From an uncultured Bizionia sp. (GTDB taxonomy: Bacteria > Bacteroidota > Bacteroidia > Flavobacteriales > Flavobacteriaceae): 64,000 nt of DNA. Shown here piece by piece: positions 22,554 through 36,751 of this stretch (positions are counted from its first letter, which is position 1; each line of letters starts with the position of its first letter). The DNA lies in contig CANMCF010000020.1 of the NCBI GenBank assembly GCA_947496215.1, positions 21,410-85,409 of the forward strand, given 5' to 3'. The position numbers were made by a program, and so were the translations under genes. The notes beneath the pieces were generated by a model. It was not told where the DNA came from, did not search any database, and was given only the letters and a program-made list of their open reading frames with translations.

Positions 22554-23318
22554 TTAGGAATTTTTATTTATGATTTCTTTTGCCAAACTCAAATAATTGC
22601 TAGCTCCTTTGCTTCCTGCATCGTAACTTATGATGCTTTCTCCATAACTTGGCGCTTCACTCAAGCGGACATTACGTTGTATGATGGTTTTGAATACCAT
22701 ATCGTTAAAATGTTTCTGTACTTCTTCCACGACTTGATTGGACAAACGTAAACGCGCATCGTACATGGTAAGTAATAGCCCTTCGATGTCCAACTCCGGG
22801 TTGTGAACCTTTTGAACACTTTTTATGGTGTTTAGCAATTTTCCAAGACCTTCCAATGCAAAGTATTCACATTGTATCGGGATTATTACTGCATCGGATG
22901 CCGTAAGTGCATTCAAGGTAAGCAATCCCAATGAAGGCGCGCAATCTATGAGTATGTAGTCGTAGTCATCCTTTATGTCGGCCAAAGCTTTTTTCAACAT
23001 GTACTCGCGCTTGTCCTTGTCCACCAATTCTATTTCGATGGCAACAAGGTCTATGTGTGCAGGTATGACGTCCAGATTCGGAGTATTTGTGCCTACTATG
23101 GCTTCACTTGCAGAAACGGTATGTTCCAATAGTTGATATGAACCTACTTCCACGGCTTCGACATCTATGCCTAGGCCAGATGTTGAGTTTGCTTGTGGAT
23201 CGGCATCTATAAGTAAGACCTTCTTTTCCAAGACCCCTAGGGAGGCTGCTAAGTTTACTGAGGTGGTCGTTTTACCAACGCCTCCTTTTTGATTGGCAAT
23301 TGCAATGATTTTACCCAT
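22554..23318 (-). CDS. parA: Chromosome partitioning ATPase ParA/Soj
   Basis: MGKIIAIANQKGGVGKTTTSVNLAASL, LLIDADPQANSTSGLG, YILIDCAPSLGLLTLNAL. Confidence 0.97.
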   Translation of the reverse strand: MGKIIAIANQKGGVGKTTTSVNLAASLGVLEKKVLLIDADPQANSTSGLGIDVEAVEVGSYQLLEHTVSASEAIVGTNTPNLDVIPAHIDLVAIEIELVDKDKREYMLKKALADIKDDYDYILIDCAPSLGLLTLNALTASDAVIIPIQCEYFALEGLGKLLNTIKSVQKVHNPELDIEGLLLTMYDARLRLSNQVVEEVQKHFNDMVFKTIIQRNVRLSEAPSYGESIISYDAGSKGASNYLSLAKEIINKNS

Positions 23319-23608: not shown

Positions 23609-23719
23609 ATGACCTTTCTTTGTATAACTCAACCAGAAGAAGTTTCAAATAAGGTAGAGTATGTGGTATCTGAAAAACCTATGATTAAACAGAGTAAGAA
23701 ATTAATTGAACAATTATGA
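23609..23719 (+). CDS. Candidate 36-aa ORF overlapping the next gene start (ATGA)
   Basis: MTFLCITQPEEVSNKVEYVVSEKPMIKQSKKLIEQL*; stop TGA overlaps the ATG of 23716..23958. Confidence 0.45.
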   Translation: MTFLCITQPEEVSNKVEYVVSEKPMIKQSKKLIEQL

Positions 23720-23958
23720 AAATCACAAACAAGTCAGGTAAAACAGTGGAATTGAGTGTCAACAAATGGGGGGATTCTGGAAATACGAGTTACTTTACGG
23801 TTAAAAACGATAAAAGTGAATCTTGGGGAAGGTCGGATGTGAGAGGGTTTGTCCTATCTCTTTCTCAGGGAGGAAGTACTTATCCATTTCTCATTATGGC
23901 CTACAACGACTATAAGGTGACTCATTCTGGAGGGAAGTTCGTAGTGAGTGTTGCATAG
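23716..23958 (+). CDS. Small uncharacterised beta-rich protein (80 aa)
   Basis: MKITNKSGKTVELSVNKWGDSGNTSYFTVKNDKSESWGRSDVRGF...; followed by a terminator-like hairpin. Confidence 0.7.
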   Translation: MKITNKSGKTVELSVNKWGDSGNTSYFTVKNDKSESWGRSDVRGFVLSLSQGGSTYPFLIMAYNDYKVTHSGGKFVVSVA

Positions 23959-24105: not shown

Positions 24106-27100
24106 CTATTGAAGTACTTGGTTTTTAAAAGTGTGCCTTATCCCAAACTTCAAATAGTTTGAATTGATATTTAAGCTTGAATGTGTATAATATTCAAAAT
24201 TTGAATTAAGACTAGTGTAATCTGTTAGTTTACAGGATAGAGTACCTATGAATCTATAAAAACTCCCTGTCTGATTATCAATAAAGTATGAAGCTTCTGT
24301 TTCTAAACTGACTTTTTTGTCTTGCATTTCAAATTTAAAAGAACTCCCTCCTCCATAATAAAATCTCTTTTTCACTATCCAATAAGGGGATTCAATTGAG
24401 TAGTGTGAATTTGAAAGACTCCCCGATAATTCAATAAGTGGGTATACTTTAAATGAATTGTCAAAAAGCTTATACTGTGTTTTACCAGTTAGAATAGTAT
24501 TAAAGGAATCATCGGTATAATATGAATTTTCCAAAGCAATACTTAAAAACTGTTTTTTGTTGATGGGCCTTTCTAAATATGAAGTAAGATTCAATATGTA
24601 AATTCCAGAATTAAAGGCTACTGTCGTATTGACGGGGTGTATTTGGAGTTCAAATGAATTAAAAGTTTTAGCTTTCTTAATAATGACAGCTCCAAGGTTT
24701 AAAGTGTAATATAGCTTTGATTGTTTGGATATGTCAATCCCACCTTTTCCCCAATAACTGAATTTAGGATTTGCACCTTTTTTTTCAAGCTTGTAATGTA
24801 AACCATAAGCGCTATTGTCTTGGTTGTATTTTGAAGCTTGAAATGATAATTTATTGAAGGTATTATGCGAAAAGGATAAACTATGAGTGTTTGATTTGCT
24901 GTCAATAGTATGATAGTTTATCTGATTAAAGATGCTAGTGTTTTCATTATTGTCTTGCTGAACAATGCTTTGTGCCTCATATCTGTCATTTTCTAAAAGA
25001 CGAATGGTTTTTAAAATATCCTTCTTTACTTCTAAATAGAAAAGATCAGAATGATTTTTAAGCAATTCTTTTTGGGTAGTAATATCTGTGTATTTCACAT
25101 CTCGATTCAATGAAGCTCTAATTGTTTCTTTTGTATAAATACTGGGTAAGCTGTTTGTCAAGATCCATGATTTTTTTAATTCACCCATCGCATGATATAG
25201 TTTAGCCATTGCGCCTTTTGTATGAAAATCTTCTGGGTTATTTGTTATATGGGACATATAAGTTGTTTCTAAAGCTTTATAATCATTAACGTCATAGAGC
25301 CATTGAAGCTTATTGGTTATCATTGTTTTTGAAGAGCACTCTGTCCACTTCAATGCTTTTCGGTATTTCTTTCGATCTGCATAAAACCATGAGATTTGAG
25401 GGCTTAATTTATGCAATGTGCTATCGACGCAGGGCGTTAATTTATCTATTTCAAGACTTGCTAAGTTTGGATGTCTATAAAGCAATTGTTCGTAATATTT
25501 AGATAGGGATATTTTTTTAATAGCTGATAACGAATCAATGTTCATAAACCAATTTAATTTTGAATCGATATCAATCTCATTATTGCAAGCAGCCCATTTA
25601 ATTGCCTCTCGATATTTTTTTCGTTTTGCATAATACCATACAATCGATGAGTTTAAATGGTCTATTTCCCTGTTTTCACAAGGAGTTTCCTTTTTTAGTA
25701 TTTCGATTGCTTGATCCGAACCTATAGTTAATAAATGATTGAGATAGAGTTTTTGGTTTTCTTCAGATTTATTTAACTGATAGAGCTTCTTGTAAAGTTT
25801 GGAAATGGCATTGTCAAAATGATCATGATTGGAGAAAGTTAAATAGTCTTTAATTAATTCAGGGTCTTCATTTGAACTAGCTATCATTTTTTTCAACCAT
25901 TTGTTTTTATAATCATTATTCGGGTAACCTATTTCTATGCTCAAAACTTTTGCAAATAGGATGTTCTCTTTATGTGGGTTTTTATCACAATATAATTCAA
26001 AATTATCCCAAGCCTGTTCTATTTGATTTGTCCATGACATATATTTAAAATAGGATAGCCAAAGATTCTTATCTATTGTTTTTTTTGAGAGAATTCTACT
26101 TTCAATTATTTTAATAGCAGCAGTGATGTCTTGGTTTGCGATATGGTTGTCTATTTTTAAGTCAAAGTTTAGATATTCATTTTGCTGAGCTGTATAGTGT
26201 AGATGTCTTTTTTTGAAATCTTCTTGTTTACTATGCTTGTTGTCTTTATTTAGTTCGTGTTTTTTTATATTAACGATGCTTAACTTTTTTTTTTGCGTTT
26301 TAATAGTCAGCAAGTAGCCATTAAAAATAGGGGTTTTTGAAAATGAAATATTGTTTTTGGCAAGGTCATTCGTGATTAATTTAAGATTTGATGAAGAGGC
26401 GTATACAAACCAATATTGTTCACGTTGATCTTCATCTTGCTCTTCAGAAACGAATACTTCATATCTATTGCTTCCATTTCTATGAATGTAGATGTCTGAT
26501 CTCCATTTCTTGGTAATTTCAACAGCATCAGCAGTTGTCTGATATTGTATCATTGGGAAAAGTTTTTTATAATCAATCAAGTATTCTTTGAAAATGGGAA
26601 ACATCCCTTTTTTATTTCCTTTGGAAGTTCTCCAGCCCAATCCATCTTTATTTCTTAATTCAAAATGATCATTGTGCTGATTGTGGTTGTTGGGGATTTG
26701 GTAAACATCATCGGGGTGGATAAAATGAGACCATATTCCTGTATATAGATATAATGATTGTTTTTCGTATTCATCATTATCATTCAGGTTATAACCATGG
26801 GTTATTCTGGGGAAATCAAAAATATCTTCTAAGTATGGGTCAGGGTCATAATCTCTAGCCCCTCCATTTTCTTTTTTTCCATCGTATAAACTACACATGT
26901 ATTTAATGGAAGGCATTCCTTGTTTTAACTTAGCCAATCCCAGGCTATCAATATAGTTAGATGGAGGAACATATGTAACAGGAAACTTTCCATAATGGTT
27001 AATGGTCCATTTTTTATTTACGGCATTCAAAGCAATAGGTATGTTGTTAATGTTATTCCATTCCGACTTCAACAATGAAATATGGTTGTATCCATGAAGA

Positions 27101-28152
27101 CCTAGCTCATGTTTTGATTTTATTACATCATGCGTAATATAATCTGCGATAGGAATTTTGGCGTTGTTTATTGTTGTTTTTGCAGAGTTCCATTCTTTAA
27201 AAAGAAACGATGGTTCAGTTGAACCATTATAGCTAAAAGAAGGAATTGCAGTATATTTAACATTAAGAGAATCGGCAAGGTCTTTCATATCTTCCCACCA
27301 AACATTGCTAATGAAATCTGAAATGCTCAAATCCATTTCTGATGCTATTGGTTCAGCTTTTATAGGATAGACTGGAGACGGAAAATCATCAATAAATATA
27401 GTGTTTACATTTGCAATAGGATATGGGATGCCTTCTAGGCCGTTCAATACAAGAGAAAAAAGCAAGCCTCTGTCCATTCTGCTTAAATTGTGTTGGCTGT
27501 TATAATAAAACACCTTGCCAGATCCAATTTTGTTTTGGGTGATCAAAGGATAATTTTTATTTGTTTGAGAAGACGCTATTATGCTAATGTCATTAGAGAA
27601 ATTTGATGCTTCTAATCCATAATGATCGACCTCTTGTAAAAGGTTTTTTCTTTTTAAGTTGGGCAATAAAGGAGTGTTGAAAAAAAAACCTGACTCTTTG
27701 AGGCTAAGAGAATAAAGTGCTTTGGCTTCTATGCCTATTAAAAAACCTAGCCTTCTATCCTGACATAAATTGGGGATTATCAATGTACCTCCTCGTTCAA
27801 CAAAGTGGTGTATCTTTTCTACACCATAAGTCGTCAGCTTTTTAGTGCCAACAATGCAAAGTATGGCTCCATTAAAATTTGTGTCGGTTTTATTCCAATT
27901 GTCTATCTCTATGCTTGAATAAGGCATTTTTGTGTAATCACAAACCTTTTGCATATTTTGTTCATATACGATGCTTACCGAATCGTTTTTGTCCAATATG
28001 AAGTTTACAACAGCACTTTCATCATGTTTCTTTGTGAAATTTCTGATAATTTTATTAGAAATTTTAGACTCGGGCATATTGTGTTTTATAATAAAGAAAG
28101 AAACTAGCAATAAGGTTGCAAAGATATATTTGTAAACTTTCATATAGTGCAT
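24106..28152 (-). CDS. Predicted fusion: PelA-like/DUF2194-type polysaccharide deacetylase, TPR region and outer-membrane beta-barrel (PelB-like)
   Basis: 1348 aa: N-terminal signal/anchor; NTIFIDDFPSP and KHELGLHGYNH (CE4-like metal-binding motifs); long helical repeats (e.g. DSTLHKLSPQISWFYADRKKYRKALKW); about 270 C-terminal residues with alternating amphipathic strands ending FGIRHTFKN. Confidence 0.7.
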   Translation of the reverse strand: MHYMKVYKYIFATLLLVSFFIIKHNMPESKISNKIIRNFTKKHDESAVVNFILDKNDSVSIVYEQNMQKVCDYTKMPYSSIEIDNWNKTDTNFNGAILCIVGTKKLTTYGVEKIHHFVERGGTLIIPNLCQDRRLGFLIGIEAKALYSLSLKESGFFFNTPLLPNLKRKNLLQEVDHYGLEASNFSNDISIIASSQTNKNYPLITQNKIGSGKVFYYNSQHNLSRMDRGLLFSLVLNGLEGIPYPIANVNTIFIDDFPSPVYPIKAEPIASEMDLSISDFISNVWWEDMKDLADSLNVKYTAIPSFSYNGSTEPSFLFKEWNSAKTTINNAKIPIADYITHDVIKSKHELGLHGYNHISLLKSEWNNINNIPIALNAVNKKWTINHYGKFPVTYVPPSNYIDSLGLAKLKQGMPSIKYMCSLYDGKKENGGARDYDPDPYLEDIFDFPRITHGYNLNDNDEYEKQSLYLYTGIWSHFIHPDDVYQIPNNHNQHNDHFELRNKDGLGWRTSKGNKKGMFPIFKEYLIDYKKLFPMIQYQTTADAVEITKKWRSDIYIHRNGSNRYEVFVSEEQDEDQREQYWFVYASSSNLKLITNDLAKNNISFSKTPIFNGYLLTIKTQKKKLSIVNIKKHELNKDNKHSKQEDFKKRHLHYTAQQNEYLNFDLKIDNHIANQDITAAIKIIESRILSKKTIDKNLWLSYFKYMSWTNQIEQAWDNFELYCDKNPHKENILFAKVLSIEIGYPNNDYKNKWLKKMIASSNEDPELIKDYLTFSNHDHFDNAISKLYKKLYQLNKSEENQKLYLNHLLTIGSDQAIEILKKETPCENREIDHLNSSIVWYYAKRKKYREAIKWAACNNEIDIDSKLNWFMNIDSLSAIKKISLSKYYEQLLYRHPNLASLEIDKLTPCVDSTLHKLSPQISWFYADRKKYRKALKWTECSSKTMITNKLQWLYDVNDYKALETTYMSHITNNPEDFHTKGAMAKLYHAMGELKKSWILTNSLPSIYTKETIRASLNRDVKYTDITTQKELLKNHSDLFYLEVKKDILKTIRLLENDRYEAQSIVQQDNNENTSIFNQINYHTIDSKSNTHSLSFSHNTFNKLSFQASKYNQDNSAYGLHYKLEKKGANPKFSYWGKGGIDISKQSKLYYTLNLGAVIIKKAKTFNSFELQIHPVNTTVAFNSGIYILNLTSYLERPINKKQFLSIALENSYYTDDSFNTILTGKTQYKLFDNSFKVYPLIELSGSLSNSHYSIESPYWIVKKRFYYGGGSSFKFEMQDKKVSLETEASYFIDNQTGSFYRFIGTLSCKLTDYTSLNSNFEYYTHSSLNINSNYLKFGIRHTFKNQVLQ

Positions 28153-30080
28153 TAAAATATTAAATCCAAAATTTTGCTGGAATCTGGGGTGTTCACAATT
28201 TCATAGACTTTAAGAGGTCCGTCTTCCATAAACAAATTAACTGTTCGTCTTTTACATACAAGTTTTTCAATTTGTTCAACAATAGCATTAGGTGTGTTGT
28301 ATCGTGTATGTTTTGATTTCAAAATAAATACCAAAATTGTTTTGGGTAATACGTATTCAGGATTTTCGTCAAAGAACTTTTTGTCAGATAAATGCTGATG
28401 ATATATGCTTTCTTGCTCATTGTAGTCATTTGTGAAATATTCATGAGGTATGAAATAATGAGAGTTTCTGCTAAGGGGTTTTCCATAGTCATTATTTACA
28501 ATAGCATAAGAAAAGGGTAAATAAGTATCAAATATTTTTTCATATGTTTTTAGAATCAATTGTTTTTCTGAATCGATTTTTTGTATGTTGTTTTCAGTAA
28601 ATTGACTATGATTGTAGTAAAAAAAATAAAAACTGAATGACATGAAAAGTGTTGGGATAAGCTTTTTGTTTTTGAATTTGAAGACTTTTTTGCTGAGAAT
28701 TCCAAAATTGCCTGCTAGCAAGGCAATTATAATTGGAATGAAAACACATAATGATTGATTTAGCAAATCCTTATCCCACCAATAGCTATCAATATATGTG
28801 AGGAGAATTAACAAGCATGTACATGAGCTAAAGATGAATTGTAGATAAAACGCTTTTCTCAAATATCTTTTTAGAGTTATTAATATCGTTAGATTTAATG
28901 TGGTAAATGTAAAAAAGATGATTTTCATCTTTTTGTAAGAAAGCAACAACAAAGGAGAGTCCGTATAAATAGATACATCGATAATATTATTCTGTAAAAA
29001 TGTTAGAAAGTTTGTTTGCTTTATGACGCACATTATGTAATGTAGACAAAGAATGATTGTAGTGCCCAACAGGTAGGCCCTTATGCTTTGGTATTTTGCA
29101 TGATTGTATATCTTAGGAGTAAATAGAATTAAGCATAGTAGTAGTATAGGTACTAGAATAACGGCTGTGAATAAATTGATTAGTGTTATTGCAGCAAAAA
29201 TCAGTGTTAAATCAAAATTAAAACCAAATAGTCTTGAAGTTTTAAAATGTGGATTTACTATATAGGGAATAGTTGGTAATGCGAAACACAAACTTAAAAA
29301 AATGGATTTGTGTTCGAAAACATAATTAATGTTAATAGGGATAATGTTTATGTAAAAAATAAAAATCAATGAAGCTATCAAAGCCAAGATTTTATTTGTG
29401 TCATTTAACTTAGATGTTACCCAAAAAATAATCAAGGCTAAAAAAATTGTTTCTATAACCCCAAAGGATTGCAATGCTAACTCGGAACTGATTCCTGTTA
29501 GTTTTTGATAAAAATTTATAAGTGTTAGTTCTCCATTTATAGATAGGGAGTCATTATACAGGCTATTGAAATTCATTGATTTTATAGCGTTTAGATCACT
29601 TAGCCAAAAATCAGACAACAAGTATAAATCATATTCAATTAAATAAAAACGACTTGTGATGACTGCTAGACTGATTATGAGAATAACTAAAAATGATTGA
29701 AGTATTGGGGTAGATATTCTGCAGTTTAAATTTATTTTGGAGTAATGATTCAATTCTTTCAGTAATCGTAGAATGATTAATTCTTTTTCTTGCCTTAACA
29801 CCGAAAGGAATTGTCTGCCTTTCTTTTGCTTAAAATAATGCAAGAAGAAAAGTGTCGACAAAGTTAAATAGGCGCTTATAGAATCGTAAAGGTTAAGTAA
29901 GGTAAGTATGTAGTTGATTATGACCAAACAACTTCCGTAGGTTATCAATATGAAAATGTAATTTTCAAAAGGTTTGTTAAATATAGTTTTGTTGGTGATT
30001 TTATTATTGATAAAGGTTAGTAAAATCACAAGTAGGGTTATTCTTGCGAACCCTATGGAGAGTAAAAAATTATAAAGCAT
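28152..30080 (-). CDS. Polytopic membrane protein of unknown function in a Pel-like operon
   Basis: 642 aa, many hydrophobic helices plus a soluble C-terminal region; overlaps the downstream gene by 1 nt. Confidence 0.7.
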   Translation of the reverse strand: MLYNFLLSIGFARITLLVILLTFINNKITNKTIFNKPFENYIFILITYGSCLVIINYILTLLNLYDSISAYLTLSTLFFLHYFKQKKGRQFLSVLRQEKELIILRLLKELNHYSKINLNCRISTPILQSFLVILIISLAVITSRFYLIEYDLYLLSDFWLSDLNAIKSMNFNSLYNDSLSINGELTLINFYQKLTGISSELALQSFGVIETIFLALIIFWVTSKLNDTNKILALIASLIFIFYINIIPININYVFEHKSIFLSLCFALPTIPYIVNPHFKTSRLFGFNFDLTLIFAAITLINLFTAVILVPILLLCLILFTPKIYNHAKYQSIRAYLLGTTIILCLHYIMCVIKQTNFLTFLQNNIIDVSIYTDSPLLLLSYKKMKIIFFTFTTLNLTILITLKRYLRKAFYLQFIFSSCTCLLILLTYIDSYWWDKDLLNQSLCVFIPIIIALLAGNFGILSKKVFKFKNKKLIPTLFMSFSFYFFYYNHSQFTENNIQKIDSEKQLILKTYEKIFDTYLPFSYAIVNNDYGKPLSRNSHYFIPHEYFTNDYNEQESIYHQHLSDKKFFDENPEYVLPKTILVFILKSKHTRYNTPNAIVEQIEKLVCKRRTVNLFMEDGPLKVYEIVNTPDSSKILDLIF

Positions 30081-30089
30081 AAAACTAAA

Positions 30090-30893
30090 TTATCTAAAAG
30101 ATGGGGAGGTCTGTAGATTGATGTTTCCAATAAATTTAGACCATTTTCTAGGTAATCTTCTTTTAATTTTTCTATTGATTTTTCTTGAATCGCTATATTC
30201 AATAATGATCACTTCTTTTTTATATTTTTCATAGGCTTCTTGGATTGTTTTCTTTCTTGATTTAAAATCGCTTTTCTCTCTAATAGCATAGGATGAAGTC
30301 TTAAAGTCATAATCGGTAACTAATGATTCAATTACTATGGATGATATATAAGCGTGTGTGTTTGGAAGTAGTTCTAAACCAGAGTTCTGTATTAGTTTTA
30401 AATGATCGTTTTTGTCTTTGATCTCTTTAATGAGACTAATTAGATGATCTTTTTGAAAATAGCTTTTTCCATAGCGGCAAAAATTGTCGATATTGTCTAA
30501 AAATAAACCGTCAAACCCTAATGTTGCTAATGATTTTACATGTTTCATTAAAACTTTGCGAGTTTCTTTAGCAGATAGATCAATGAAATAGCTGTCCCAA
30601 ATTTTGTTTTTGCCAACTAGATTGTTCTTTACCTCTTTAAAATAAGTGGTATATTCATTAACTTCTCCTAGGCTAATATAAGCGAAAATAGTGGTGTTGT
30701 TTTTTTTTAAAACAGCTATATCTGTTTTTGAATAATGCTGAGCTTCTAAAATAACATAATCATAACCATTGATTGATTCTGGAGCTACTTTTCCATAGCA
30801 TAAGTAAATAGTTTTTTTGTCAAACTCTTCAGCAGGAGCCAAATGATTGATAGATGTAAAGATCAAAATGAAAATTATTTTAAAATGATGCAT
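30090..30893 (-). CDS. GH114-like endo-alpha-1,4-polygalactosaminidase (PelA hydrolase-domain-like)
   Basis: Signal peptide; YDYVILEAQHYSKTDIAVLKKNNTTIFAYISLGEVNEY and LGFDGLFLDNIDNF motifs. Confidence 0.83.
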   Translation of the reverse strand: MHHFKIIFILIFTSINHLAPAEEFDKKTIYLCYGKVAPESINGYDYVILEAQHYSKTDIAVLKKNNTTIFAYISLGEVNEYTTYFKEVKNNLVGKNKIWDSYFIDLSAKETRKVLMKHVKSLATLGFDGLFLDNIDNFCRYGKSYFQKDHLISLIKEIKDKNDHLKLIQNSGLELLPNTHAYISSIVIESLVTDYDFKTSSYAIREKSDFKSRKKTIQEAYEKYKKEVIIIEYSDSRKINRKIKRRLPRKWSKFIGNINLQTSPSFR

Positions 30894-32469
30894 AATAATG
30901 ATAATCTAATTGAGTGAAAAAGCGCAATACTTTTCTTAGGGTTAATAGCATATAGGCAAAAGCACCGGTTAGCATACCAAATACACTATACTCATAATAA
31001 AAAAATCGACTTAAAACGAACCCGACTATTAAATTTGCTAAAAATCCAATTATAATAGATTTCAATGGCGTTGATGAAATGTTTAATGTAAATAGATATA
31101 AAGTATTTAGCATTCCCCATATCAACAGTATGTAACCAATACTTCCATATAAAAACACATTCAAGCCAATGTCTTTTAACTGTTCGTTGAAAAGTGATGA
31201 ATATCCCCATCGACTAGTAATTAAAAGATATAAAGCACTTGTTATGATTATTCCACTGACAATAAGTAAAGAAACGTTCCTCCAATAGGCTTTTTTAAAA
31301 TCATTATTAAATTTTTTCAAAGACTCAATCGATGTACTCCGTTGTTTGTAGTCTAAAAATTTACTGAATGTTGTTATGCTATATTCCAATACTCCAACCA
31401 TAAGGAAAAATGTGAGTACGGCCAAGTCCATACCAATTTCATAATTGGGTTCATAAAAAATAAAGTATGGTAAATCCCTGTTTATGTTTGATGACCAAGC
31501 CAATATTCGATCTAAGAAAACGAACAAATAGAAAAAAACGCCATATAAAAAGTAATTGAAATTCGAATATATTATTTGTGATGATTTAAGATCTTGGGAG
31601 ACATGGTTTAAATCATTTTTTTTTACGAATTTCAAATGGTGTTTTATAAATATTCGTGATATGAAAATGGACAAGCTAATTCCAATCCAGTGGGTGAGGT
31701 AAATGGGTAGAACATCCATAGCTTTCAAAAGTAAGGATATAGCAGTGCCAATTATGATGGCTACAGATGAAATCCAGCGTTGTTTCAATGGATACAAAGG
31801 AGCCAAGGCGAGAAGCAAATAACCAATCAAAAAAGAATAGCATGACATGACGATGAGTACACTGAATGGGTAGAAATTAAGAATGACATTCATTGTAAAC
31901 AATATTATAAAAACAAGGAGAAAAGTTTTTAACCCATTTTCAATTAAGTTGTTAATTGTTGATTTTGTGTTAATATAATCTTGATGATTCCAATAGAATG
32001 AAATTTGTTTACCTATTACTTGAACAAATCCGCCAGATACTATAAAACCAATTATAACCCCTAATACAACGGTTGTTGATTGCAATTCGTTGAATTCTAG
32101 GCTTGTCCATAGTGAATAGCCAAAGAGTACTATTGAGAATATTTGTAGGAATGCAGGCGTTTGATGGATTAAGCCAGCAGGGTATTTTGTGACGAACAGT
32201 TTAGTTTTTACCCATAGGTAATCTGATAATGGAAAATATTTTGGGTTTTCTATTTCAGGTAGATTAGAATCAAAAGTATTGCACTTGTCTTTAATTTCGT
32301 TGAACATTGTCTTGGCAAGTTCTTCTATAGAGGTAGATTGATAATCCGTTATGGCATCAATTTCCCTAATTCCAAGAGATTCTATGGTAGCAATAACTGC
32401 GTTAATATTTATAGGGACTCCAATTTTATCTTGAATGTCTTCCTTTAACTGTACTTTGTAATTGATCAT
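30880..32469 (-). CDS. pelG: PelG-like exopolysaccharide transporter
   Basis: 529 aa, polytopic after a ~90-residue soluble N-terminus; next to and overlapping the pelF-like gene; assignment partly by synteny. Confidence 0.6.
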   Translation of the reverse strand: MINYKVQLKEDIQDKIGVPININAVIATIESLGIREIDAITDYQSTSIEELAKTMFNEIKDKCNTFDSNLPEIENPKYFPLSDYLWVKTKLFVTKYPAGLIHQTPAFLQIFSIVLFGYSLWTSLEFNELQSTTVVLGVIIGFIVSGGFVQVIGKQISFYWNHQDYINTKSTINNLIENGLKTFLLVFIILFTMNVILNFYPFSVLIVMSCYSFLIGYLLLALAPLYPLKQRWISSVAIIIGTAISLLLKAMDVLPIYLTHWIGISLSIFISRIFIKHHLKFVKKNDLNHVSQDLKSSQIIYSNFNYFLYGVFFYLFVFLDRILAWSSNINRDLPYFIFYEPNYEIGMDLAVLTFFLMVGVLEYSITTFSKFLDYKQRSTSIESLKKFNNDFKKAYWRNVSLLIVSGIIITSALYLLITSRWGYSSLFNEQLKDIGLNVFLYGSIGYILLIWGMLNTLYLFTLNISSTPLKSIIIGFLANLIVGFVLSRFFYYEYSVFGMLTGAFAYMLLTLRKVLRFFTQLDYHYYASF

Positions 32470-34016
32470 ACAGATTTATAATTTATTTTTCCTTTCTGAT
32501 GAATTTTATCGGTTTTCTTATAATTGAAAAAAGATTTATAACTTTCTTCATAATTAGAAATAAAATCATTGATAGCAAAGTTGTCGATTATTCTAGCTCT
32601 GGCATTTTTTCCCATTTGTAAGCGAAGTTTGTCATCTGTTAATAGTGTAATTACCTTTTTAGCAATGTCTTTGTAATCTTTTGCTTTGCAGAGAAACCCA
32701 CAATCACTATTTAAAGCTTCATTTACGCCCCCAACATCGGTTGCTACTACTGGGATGCCACAACTCATAGATTCTATAACAGTATATGGGAAACCTTCAG
32801 AAATGGATGTAAGTATAGAAATGTCACCTTCAGGAAATATTTTATGAGGTTCGGAATGATGACCTGCCAATATAAAATGATTTTCTAGATTTAGTTCTTT
32901 TATGAGAGCTTCACACTGTTTAGTGTATTCTGGGACTGCATTTTTATTGCCATAAATTAAATATTTCACATTGGGTATGGTTCTTCTTGCTACATTACAT
33001 GATTTAATCATTGTAATGATGTCTTTTAGTTCAAAGATTCTAGCTGCTGCGACAACTGTAGGTCTGCCATCATTTGTTTTTGGCCTTATAATTGGTCTAA
33101 ATTTATCTGTGTCAATTCCATTATAGATTATTTTTATTTTTTTGGGATCCGCCCCATAGTTTTTTTCCCATTTTGTATTGAATTTATTTACAGATAGAAT
33201 TAAATCTGATTTATAATAGACTAAACGAGTTATGGATTCAGAAAATCTAATTAAAAAGTCTTTTAAAAAATTTGAATAATTAGAAGAGTTAATGGCAAGT
33301 AGCCTTTCTCTTATGAAAACCCCGTGTTCTGTTAAAATCAATGGTGTATTATGCTTAAACTTAGCTATTAAAGCAGGTAAAACAGTAAATCCAGCAATTG
33401 TAATGTGTGACACATTCACCTTGGGGACATCTATGGATATTGGCATTAAGAATCTATAAACCCACCGTAAACCCGTTGTTAAATCTATAAGGGTTGTTGA
33501 TTGTTTGTAGCTGGTTGCATTATCATTCATATAGTTTTTGTATGCATCCCAAACACATTTGCTAGTCATAGTTTTCTTATAATCATACATTTGAAAATAA
33601 CTCCACATTGAGAACAATACATTATACAGTTCGTCTAAATCCTTTTTTTCTGAATATATGATGTCTAATAGTTTTTTTATTAGAGGGACAAACTCTATGT
33701 CTATAGTTTTGAAATCGGTTATCTCTTTTCGACGGACAATTTTATAATATTGCTTCCCAAAATTTAAATAATCATGAGGTTCGTTAGGAGACCATATAGG
33801 CAATTGAATTACTTTTTTTACACTTTTTGGGAGTTCGCAATTATATTTTGATTCATAATTGGCATTGATGGAATAAATGTAATATTCGATTCCTTTTGTT
33901 TCATTGCATAAAGTATGAGCCCAAGTAGAAATACCTCCTCCATAAAAGGGATAATTTCCTTCAGTAATTAACATTACCTTTAAACTGGGAGCGCTATTTT
34001 TTTGTTGAGGGAGCAT
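32466..34016 (-). CDS. pelF: PelF-like GT4 glycosyltransferase
   Basis: KVMLITEGNYPFYGGGISTWAHTLCNE N-terminus; NGIDTDKFRPI; ILTSISEGFPYTVIESMSCGIPVVATDVGGVNEAL. Confidence 0.82.
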   Translation of the reverse strand: MLPQQKNSAPSLKVMLITEGNYPFYGGGISTWAHTLCNETKGIEYYIYSINANYESKYNCELPKSVKKVIQLPIWSPNEPHDYLNFGKQYYKIVRRKEITDFKTIDIEFVPLIKKLLDIIYSEKKDLDELYNVLFSMWSYFQMYDYKKTMTSKCVWDAYKNYMNDNATSYKQSTTLIDLTTGLRWVYRFLMPISIDVPKVNVSHITIAGFTVLPALIAKFKHNTPLILTEHGVFIRERLLAINSSNYSNFLKDFLIRFSESITRLVYYKSDLILSVNKFNTKWEKNYGADPKKIKIIYNGIDTDKFRPIIRPKTNDGRPTVVAAARIFELKDIITMIKSCNVARRTIPNVKYLIYGNKNAVPEYTKQCEALIKELNLENHFILAGHHSEPHKIFPEGDISILTSISEGFPYTVIESMSCGIPVVATDVGGVNEALNSDCGFLCKAKDYKDIAKKVITLLTDDKLRLQMGKNARARIIDNFAINDFISNYEESYKSFFNYKKTDKIHQKGKINYKSV

Positions 34017-34624
34017 TTGAGAGCAAATAAAAGTGTTGACTTTGATTGCAGCTAATTTACTTGAGTTAATTTTAGTGGATATAGATAAAAAGTGGTTTTA
34101 ATCGATGAAGTGTATATGTGTGTGATAGGAGTGAAATAAGTGAAAACATATACCGTTTTTAAAAATTATTTCACTATTAAGTTATCTCTTCAAAGCCATT
34201 TTTTAAGATTGTTACAAAAGGAGTTGAATAAGTTGTTTCTTATGTGAAATAGCTGAAATAGTACTATTTAAGATAGGAATATTATTGAAAAACACTAGAA
34301 GGGTTTTGTTTTAAGATGAAGCTGTAAATTTCAATCATAATACCTTATAACTTATGGTTTTTATGCCTATCAATTAGAATGTTTTTTATGTGTTTGTAGA
34401 TGAAAGTTGTTTTATTTCGATAAAATAAGATTTCTTCTAGAGCTGACCTCACCAAGTAAAAAAGGAGAGGTCTTTGTTTTGTACATTACAACCAATGGAC
34501 GTTTACCAGATTCTTTAGAAGAAAAAACTTTCTTTTTTGTATTAAAAAGAAATATGACCATATACGGAGTACAGACAGACAAAATGTTTCACAAGTTTTT
34601 AAATTTGAAATCAAATAGACTTGC

Positions 34625-36751
34625 TTATTCTTCTATCAAAACCTCTAAAATCTTAATGGCAGCTTCACTGATTTTGGTTCCTGGACCAAAAACTGCAACT
34701 GCACCGGCATCGAACAAGTATTGGTAATCTTGCTTTGGGATGACACCGCCAACGATGACCATGATGTCTTCCCTGCCATAATTCTTAAGAGCTTCTATTA
34801 CTTGTGGAACCAATGTCTTGTGCCCAGCTGCAAGAGAGGAAACACCCAAGATATGTACATCGTTTTCCACGGCTTGCTTTGCTGCTTCCTGTGGAGTCTG
34901 GAACAAGGGGCCTATGTCCACATCGAAACCAACGTCTGCATAACCTGTTGCAACTACCTTTGCGCCGCGGTCGTGCCCGTCTTGTCCCATTTTTGCAATC
35001 ATGATACGAGGCCTACGCCCATCTTGTTCTGCAAATGCATTGGCCAATTCTTTTGCCTTCTTAAAGCTTTTATCGTCTTTTATTTCTTTGCTATACACTC
35101 CCGAAAATGATTTTATTTGTGCTTTGTAACGCCCGAATTCGACCTCCATGGCATCACTTATTTCTCCCAAAGTTGCGCGTTCACGAGCAGCTTCGACTGC
35201 TAAAGCTAATAAATTTTTTGTTCCAGTTCGTGCTGCCTTGGTTAAATCGTCTAACGTTCGTTGTACTTTTTTCGTGTCTCGTTTGGCTTTGATTCCATTT
35301 AAACGTTCTATCTGTTGGTTACGTACCGTTTGGTTGTCGACCTCTAGAATATGCAAGGGATCTTCCTCTTCCAAGACATATTTGTTTACGCCGACAATGA
35401 TATCTTGCCCAGAATCTATTCTTGCTTGTTTTCTTGCAGCAGCTTCCTCAATACGTAGTTTTGGGATTCCTGCCTCGATGGCTTTTGTCATTCCTCCAAG
35501 CTCTTCGACTTCCTCAATCAAGGACCATGCCTTTTCTGCAATGTCATTGGTTAGTTTTTCTACATAATAGCTACCAGCCCAAGGGTCTACCGTTTTTGTG
35601 ATGTTGGTTTCCTCTTGTAGGAATATTTGTGTGTTTCGTGCTATTCTTGCGGAAAAATCCGTTGGTAGTGCAATGGCTTCATCCAAAGCATTGGTATGTA
35701 GGCTTTGCGTACCTCCAAATGCTGCAGCTGTAGCTTCTATCGTTGTTCTGGCAACATTGTTGAACGGGTCTTGTTCCGTCAAACTCCAGCCACTGGTTTG
35801 ACAATGTGTCCTCAAAGCCAATGATTTCTGGTTTTTTGGGTTGAATTGCTTTACAAGTTTTGCCCACAGCATCCTAGCTGCACGCATTTTTGCAATTTCC
35901 ATGAAATGATTCATTCCAATGGCCCAAAAGAAAGAGAGGCGAGGAGCAAAGGTGTCAATGTCCATCCCAGCTGCCAATCCTTTTCTTATGTATTCCAAAC
36001 CATCTGCCAATGTGTAGGCCAGTTCAATGTCACAAGTTGCACCGGCTTCTTGCATGTGATATCCCGAAATACTAATGCTGTTGAACTTGGGCATATTGTT
36101 ACTTGTGTACTCAAATATATCCGAGATGATCTTCATGGAAGGAGTAGGTGGATAGATGTATGTGTTTCTAACCATGAACTCCTTTAAAATGTCATTTTGT
36201 ATCGTCCCAGCAAGCAATTCTGGTTTCACCCCTTGCTCTTCGGCTGCTACGATGTAAAAGGCTAGTATGGGAAGGACGGCACCATTCATTGTCATGGAAA
36301 CGGACATTTTGTCCAATGGTATCTGGTCGAACAATATCTTCATGTCCTCGACACTATCTATGGCCACACCAGCTTTTCCAACATCTCCAACGACACGTTC
36401 GTGGTCACTGTCGTAACCTCTGTGGGTTGCCAGGTCGAAAGCCACTGAAAGCCCTTTCTGTCCTGCTGCCAAGTTGCGTCTGTAAAAGGCATTGCTGTCT
36501 TCAGCCGTACTAAACCCTGCATATTGACGAATCGTCCATGGCCTACGAACATACATCGTACTGTATGGACCACGAAGGTTTGGTGCTATTCCTGCTACAA
36601 AATCCAAATGATTCAAGTTTGCAAGGTCTTCTTTTGAATATGTGGATTTTACGACAATGTCCTCTGCCGTATTGAAAGTTTCCTTGTTAACGGGTTCTAT
36701 GCCTTTTACTTCAGGTTTTAAATTGAGATGTTGAATATTCTTTCTTTGCAT
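34625..36751 (-). CDS. scpA: Methylmalonyl-CoA mutase, large (B12-binding) subunit
   Basis: [95 protein letters not shown]. Confidence 0.97.

Follow-up and report, generated by a model that had tools for sequence, protein, structure and literature searches.

Pel is regarded as a cyclic di-GMP (c-di-GMP)-regulated exopolysaccharide and is best known from Proteobacteria and Bacillota. In the canonical pelABCDEFG operon (Pseudomonas aeruginosa; found in a Caballeronia locus, L081, as well), PelA combines a hydrolase with a CE21 deacetylase and PelB is a separate protein. The Gram-positive pelDEADAFG operon of Bacillus cereus ATCC 10987 has PelD, PelE and c-di-GMP control, and has no outer-membrane export part (PMC7112168, PMC13254593). 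Here we describe a five-gene operon in a stretch of 64,000 nucleotides (nt) of contig CANMCF010000020.1 from an uncultured Bizionia sp. of the Flavobacteriaceae (this whole stretch is referred to as the window; Table 1). With the canonical operon it shares PelF, a PelG-like protein, a GH166-type hydrolase, and a tetratricopeptide repeat (TPR) scaffold with a 16-strand barrel; it differs in that the hydrolase is separate, a DUF2194-type deacetylase sits on the barrel, PelC, PelD and PelE are missing, and a membrane protein with a predicted GT-C glycosyltransferase fold is added. With the Gram-positive operon it shares PelF, a PelG-like protein, the PelADA/DUF2194 deacetylase, and a separate gene for a PelA-H-type hydrolase, but it lacks PelD and PelE, gains the GT-C protein, and carries the deacetylase in one polypeptide with a TPR-barrel. 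We consider it probable (about 0.8) that this locus belongs to the Pel family of exopolysaccharide operons and represents a distinct type found across Bacteroidota. It is Pel in the core parts tested, it is without canonical PelC, PelD and PelE, and the GT-C partner and the deacetylase-porin fusion are its constant features.

When three aligned fusion proteins were used as query, a scan of a genome collection returned 73 loci. All five genes were present in 44 of these (the window included), in Flavobacteriia and Balneolota, and the order pelF-pelG-hydrolase-GT-C-fusion held in 43; the remaining locus, L048, has the hydrolase gene first. Moreover, of 37 Flavobacteriia-type loci, 34 show a 14-nt overlap between the pelG-like and hydrolase genes. 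The co-occurrence of the five genes in 44 loci, together with this recurring overlap, puts the arrangement far beyond chance. We then considered 396 Bacteroidota genomes, sampled evenly. PelF matches above the curated threshold occurred in 27 of them and the GT-C protein also in 27, with identical lists and with no case of the GT-C protein without PelF. Each of the 27 PelF-positive genomes also has a single DUF2194 gene, whose open frame spans 1268-1364 amino acids (aa). (Note that these genomes belong to 12 genera and hence are not all independent.) Thus, an earlier reading made from the sequence alone (the sequence-only reading), which had called the operon rearranged, was misleading on this point, as the layout is the norm in Bacteroidota and not a one-off. 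In Bacillota loci the DUF2194 protein stands alone, with genes in the PelD and PelE positions upstream and pelF-pelG downstream. One locus (L106) carries a tandem second copy of the pel operon, partly broken, beside the intact one. A gene of about 510 aa upstream of the operon in Flavobacterium was not counted as a member; its start is helicase-like by eye.

The identification of PelF is firm. The protein matched NCBIfam NF038011 (E 1e-47, 163 bits versus a cut-off of 100) and DUF3492 (PF11997, E 1e-52), is the sole PF11997 match in the genome, and carries an EX7E motif at residue 407. The glycosyltransferase is thus PelF, as the sequence-only reading had supposed, and not an ordinary GT4 enzyme. 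In a quick FastTree phylogeny, of which we use the topology only, all PelF proteins of Bacteroidota operons group together, with a Deinococcus PelF adjacent and those of Bacillota apart. The Deinococcus aquaticus plasmid locus L080 is a Pel-like variant that has pelF, a protein in the PelG position, three genes of sugar-nucleotide type, two related proteins (one matching Agd3 CE/CBM87), a polygalactosaminidase and a TM1410-type hydrolase.

The 529-aa protein appears by sequence to be a divergent PelG, an assignment made with moderate confidence. It matched PF16933 with E 1.9e-6 over residues 98-526, and 14 of 30 relatives matched the same model (best 1.4e-9), with no competing family. An hhalign comparison with Bacillota PelG, of which the one checked was a clear PelG (E 2e-140), was collinear over 423 columns (E 4.6e-4); a profile search of the Protein Data Bank (PDB) with the PelG-like alignment gave no match. 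The protein also has a soluble N-terminal extension of about 97 aa that is kept across the whole clade and is not found in canonical PelG, and that is possibly a PelF-docking or regulatory domain. Residues 1-97 carry the motif ATIESxGIRxxDxxxDYGFxSIxDLA, and a similar N-terminal stretch was seen by eye in the PelG-position protein of Deinococcus (L080:11461-12978).

The hydrolase had been read from the sequence as GH114-like, and we reject this assignment: in phmmer searches it matched PelA (5TCB) with E 1.9e-20, compared to 1e-5 for TM1410 and 0.33 for the GH114-named structure 9EP5. The PelA GH166 domain is thus far nearer, and the Pfam GH114 model (PF03537) spans both families, as it also matches Caballeronia PelA. 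Residues D133, D136 and E189 are invariant in 44 of 44 sequences; E189 aligns with the PelA residue mutated in 5TSY, and D133 and E189 are the predicted catalytic pair. An extra GH114-like gene lies upstream of pelF in many marine relatives (Maribacter-type loci; L005:17352-18347) and is absent from the window genome, where there is just one PF03537 match.

The fusion protein comprises a DUF2194 deacetylase (residues ~30-585), a TPR-like helical scaffold (~640-1055) and a 16-strand outer-membrane beta-barrel (~1057-1341). Its N-terminal part matched PF09960 (DUF2194) with E 1.3e-65, and residues 47-486 matched 9ZAU with E 2e-42; 9ZAU has been identified as B. cereus PelADA (PMC13254593). Residues D255, D256, H353, H357, R449, H479 and D482 are conserved, and the corresponding D-D, HxxxH, R and H..D motifs are present in 45 of 47 long fusion proteins; equivalent metal and catalytic motifs have been described for PelADA (PMC13254593). 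Judged by sequence, the deacetylase belongs with the DUF2194-type PelADA enzymes of Gram-positive bacteria, and its predicted catalytic residues are intact. (Assignment to canonical PelA/CE21 was rejected; the canonical PelA of Caballeronia has no PF09960 match.) In an AlphaFold2 (AF2) model of residues 560-1348, helical repeats are followed by 16 beta-strands, with a predicted local distance difference test score (pLDDT) of 87 and a predicted TM-score (pTM) of 0.54, and Foldseek matched this model to BcsC (1.6e-11), PgaA (TMt 0.76) and PelB (9H80, 1.5e-7). P. aeruginosa PelB has been described with the same 16-strand barrel as BcsC and PgaA (PMC12141448). Like the fusion, the BcsC and PgaA exporters combine a TPR scaffold with a 16-strand barrel and have no recognisable PelC-type lipoprotein ring, but the fusion has its own N-terminal deacetylase and sits in a PelF/PelG operon. 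The sequence-only reading had therefore recognised the deacetylase-TPR-barrel architecture correctly, and the deacetylase is indeed there; its type is PelADA/DUF2194 and not PelA/CE21.

Deacetylase residues were lost in two of the 47 long fusion proteins, those of L042 (10007-13921) and L043 (5875-9663), which are also the sole two loci where ample flanking sequence is available on either side and pelF, pelG, the hydrolase and the GT-C gene are all lacking. This confinement suggests, on small numbers, that deacetylase function is retained solely where polymer is produced; the two lone, full-length homologues are possibly repurposed exporters or decaying copies. A further locus, L040, is a remnant in which 81 aa of the GT-C protein are left and the fusion protein is intact. 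Most relatives have a lipoprotein signal at the N-terminus of the fusion, despite its C-terminal beta-barrel. The window protein has no lipobox cysteine there and instead has a hydrophobic stretch that looks uncleaved; for P. aeruginosa PelB, too, a transmembrane helix that may stay uncleaved has been described at the N-terminus (PMC12141448).

The fourth gene, which the sequence-only reading had left unidentified, is predicted from structural modelling to encode a GT-C glycosyltransferase fold. Searches of the 642-aa protein against Pfam, NCBIfam and PDB sequences gave no match, and we rejected it as a homologue of PelE or PelD, to which hmmsearch found no similarity. An AF2 model made with 38 relatives (pTM 0.83, pLDDT 81) matched GT-C enzymes, or complexes containing one, in its first 19 PDB matches by Foldseek (E 2e-6 to 0.07, probability 0.96-1.00), led by STT3 (8AGE, E 2e-6) and then PglB, AftD, ArnT, DPY19 and PMT; nothing in a viral structure library fell below E 0.001. 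Because the TM-scores were modest, at about 0.4, the fold alone does not settle the GT-C subfamily or the active site. The protein shares with the GT-C superfamily (STT3/PglB, ArnT, AftD, PMT) the predicted fold, the order of transmembrane helices and an acid in the first periplasmic loop, but has no detectable sequence similarity to it, is an obligate Pel partner, has extra N-terminal helices, and does not keep the acid universally.

In our view there is about an even chance that the GT-C protein is genuinely enzymatic and would decorate or end-cap the polymer, so that the product would be a branched or anchored derivative of Pel and not plain Pel. Consistent with this, the predicted GT-C fold comes with the typical pattern of transmembrane helix, acidic residue, W and G/E in the first periplasmic loop, the loop acid D151 is present in 38 of 38 proteins outside Balneolota, D436 and D438 hardly vary, and co-occurrence with PelF is strict. 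However, D151 is N or S in six of seven Balneolota proteins, which indicates that catalysis may not be universal, and the operon is without a donor-synthesis gene such as one for a polyprenyl-phosphate sugar synthase. That same loss of a catalytic-type acid would fit a mainly structural protein, a membrane hub taking the place of PelD and PelE in the PelF-PelG synthase complex, as would the fact that this is the sole membrane gene remaining without PelD and PelE and is always present. We regard such a role as possible, at odds clearly short of even, given that the protein has no sequence similarity to PelD or PelE, its predicted fold belongs to an enzyme superfamily, and its acids are conserved in Flavobacteriia.

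A mechanism can be proposed on this basis. PelF would polymerise a chain of N-acetylgalactosamine (GalNAc) type from a UDP-sugar at the inner membrane, and PelG would carry it into the periplasm. At the periplasmic face the GT-C protein would most likely act as a transferase, passing a sugar or the chain between the polymer and a polyprenyl-phosphate carrier, or, alternatively, serve as the structural hub. The fusion protein would then partly deacetylate the chain and thread it through the TPR groove and into the beta-barrel of the same polypeptide, such that it may need neither a PelC ring nor an interaction between separate PelA and PelB proteins, and the secreted PelA-H-like hydrolase would trim or clear chains. 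Taken as a whole, a c-di-GMP-independent Pel machine in which the GT-C protein modifies or anchors the chain, giving decorated or surface-linked Pel through one deacetylating and exporting protein, is a tentative proposal that we put at slightly under even odds. The very divergent PelG, the added GT-C protein, and the second GH114-like gene of relatives could instead mean that Pel-derived parts serve here to make and export some other glycan, such as one that is not GalNAc-based; a different polymer had also been suggested in the sequence-only reading. This is unlikely, since no catalytic residue has been lost from the GH166-type hydrolase or from the PelADA-type deacetylase, and characterised members of both families are tied to GalNAc polymers (PMC12022489, PMC13254593).

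Consistent with the sequence-only reading, no PelC, PelD or PelE was recognisable. Flavobacteriia-type operons contain no candidate gene for PelC, and a Caballeronia PelC query found no match in the window genome in a search made without a positive control. There is no PelD gene in the operon, with PF16963 negative and the same model detecting Caballeronia PelD, and no operon gene matches PelE in size or kind. Moreover, the window genome has no GGDEF domain (eight control genomes were positive), nor do 24 of the 27 PelF-positive genomes, the window genome included. The absence of PelD together with a genome lacking GGDEF domains argues that production is probably under transcriptional or other inputs; c-di-GMP control through PelD is unlikely, and the different regulation that had been suggested is thus well supported. 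A precedent for c-di-GMP independence is provided by streptococcal pel loci, which are without the GGDEF part of PelD and retain PelD itself (PMC7112168). Five of the 43 ordered loci (L045, L046, L047, L049 and L050, of Balneolota type) have an extra gene inserted between pelG and the hydrolase gene, with HD_5 in the two scanned, and L045 has a response regulator upstream. In a more distant genome (L103, 10962-14538), SpoIIE/GAF and HD/GAF proteins follow the GT-C gene and precede the fusion gene. No GGDEF domain was found in the sampled genomes of family f38, a member of which (L106) shows the inserted-gene layout. From these inserted genes, it seems that regulators are swapped around a constant core.

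Several observations weigh against the assignment to a distinct, c-di-GMP-independent Pel type. The PelG-like protein of the window falls just below the PF16933 cut-off (27.5 bits versus 29), and its similarity to Bacillota PelG is modest (probability 33%, 18% identity). The barrel of the fusion has a fold match only, with no sequence match to PelB_C (PF24604), a model that detects Caballeronia PelB. To these is added the replacement of D151 in most Balneolota GT-C proteins. Finally, PF16963 fails to detect even the PelD of Bacillota (PMC7112168), and the three PelF-positive genomes that bear GGDEF domains may therefore encode a diverged c-di-GMP receptor at another site.

Within the window, the five open reading frames (ORFs) all have intact frames, and their successive junctions, from pelF onwards, are a 4-nt overlap, a 14-nt overlap, a 9-nt gap and a 1-nt overlap. 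These values, like the roughly 600-nt gap described upstream (to mutB, 34625-36751, same strand), agree with the sequence-only reading. The convergent gene that it placed downstream is present and is just a small ORF of 80 aa (plus strand, 23716-23958), the sole convergent ORF there, for which a Pfam scan gave no match; the next clear gene downstream is parA (22554-23318), on the operon strand. An Rfam scan near the operon, including the region upstream of pelF, found no element, a sigma-70 promoter scan gave counts close to the shuffle expectation, and the Bacteroidota -7 pattern TANNTTTG had no match upstream of pelF.

Table 1. Features of the Pel-family operon in the window
Feature	Position	Strand	Description
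pelF	32466..34016	-	Cytosolic GT4 glycosyltransferase, 516 aa, predicted polymerase
pelG-like	30880..32469	-	Polytopic inner-membrane transporter, 529 aa
pelAH	30090..30893	-	Stand-alone glycoside hydrolase with signal peptide, 267 aa, GH166/PelA hydrolase type
GT-C-fold (predicted) integral membrane protein, provisionally 'POLY'	28152..30080	-	642 aa
pelADA-pelB-like fusion	24106..28152	-	1348 aa
Intergenic region upstream of pelF	34017..34624	-	608 nt, 27.5% GC, presumed promoter site

The operon has a GC content of 30.6%, compared to a mean of 35.7% for windows of equal length, and its fusion gene was found in three of the 60 genomes of a relatives search (window genome counted) and is missing from two congeners. 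In both congeners the parA-mutB interval is syntenic with other genes inside: an unrelated large gene, M16 peptidase-like by eye, in one (G002), and a SMEK-domain gene with a 977-aa gene in the other (G001). Horizontal acquisition at a variable site is the likely history of the operon. Low GC, a variable site and absence from congeners might also be expected of a chance neighbourhood or a decaying remnant of unrelated glycan genes, an explanation we find highly improbable in that all five frames and the catalytic residues are intact, the same five genes occur in 44 loci, and PelF, the GT-C protein and DUF2194 are found together in all 27 PelF-positive genomes. The G001 genes (L115:2779-7058; SMEK domain PF21941, PADLOC Aga_REase-PNTD 2.5e-21, then the 977-aa protein, without a family) are a candidate pair of defence-like genes at this variable site.

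In the open-access literature, Pel surveys cover Proteobacteria, Gram-positives, Thermotogae, Aquificota and others, and we found in them no Bacteroidota layout, no GT-C component, and no system named so far whose genes follow this order; an earlier description is possible in subscription papers, supplements or preprints, which lie outside that scope. In many aquatic biofilms, and on many particle surfaces, flavobacteria are the dominant group. A phylum-wide Bacteroidota Pel without PelD or GGDEF domains would, if true, mean that the synthase can run without c-di-GMP, and the obligate GT-C partner would be a new, testable Pel component. Moreover, deacetylation and export in one polypeptide would, if true, offer a naturally occurring test of the proposed guidance of the chain to PelA by PelB (PMC12022489).

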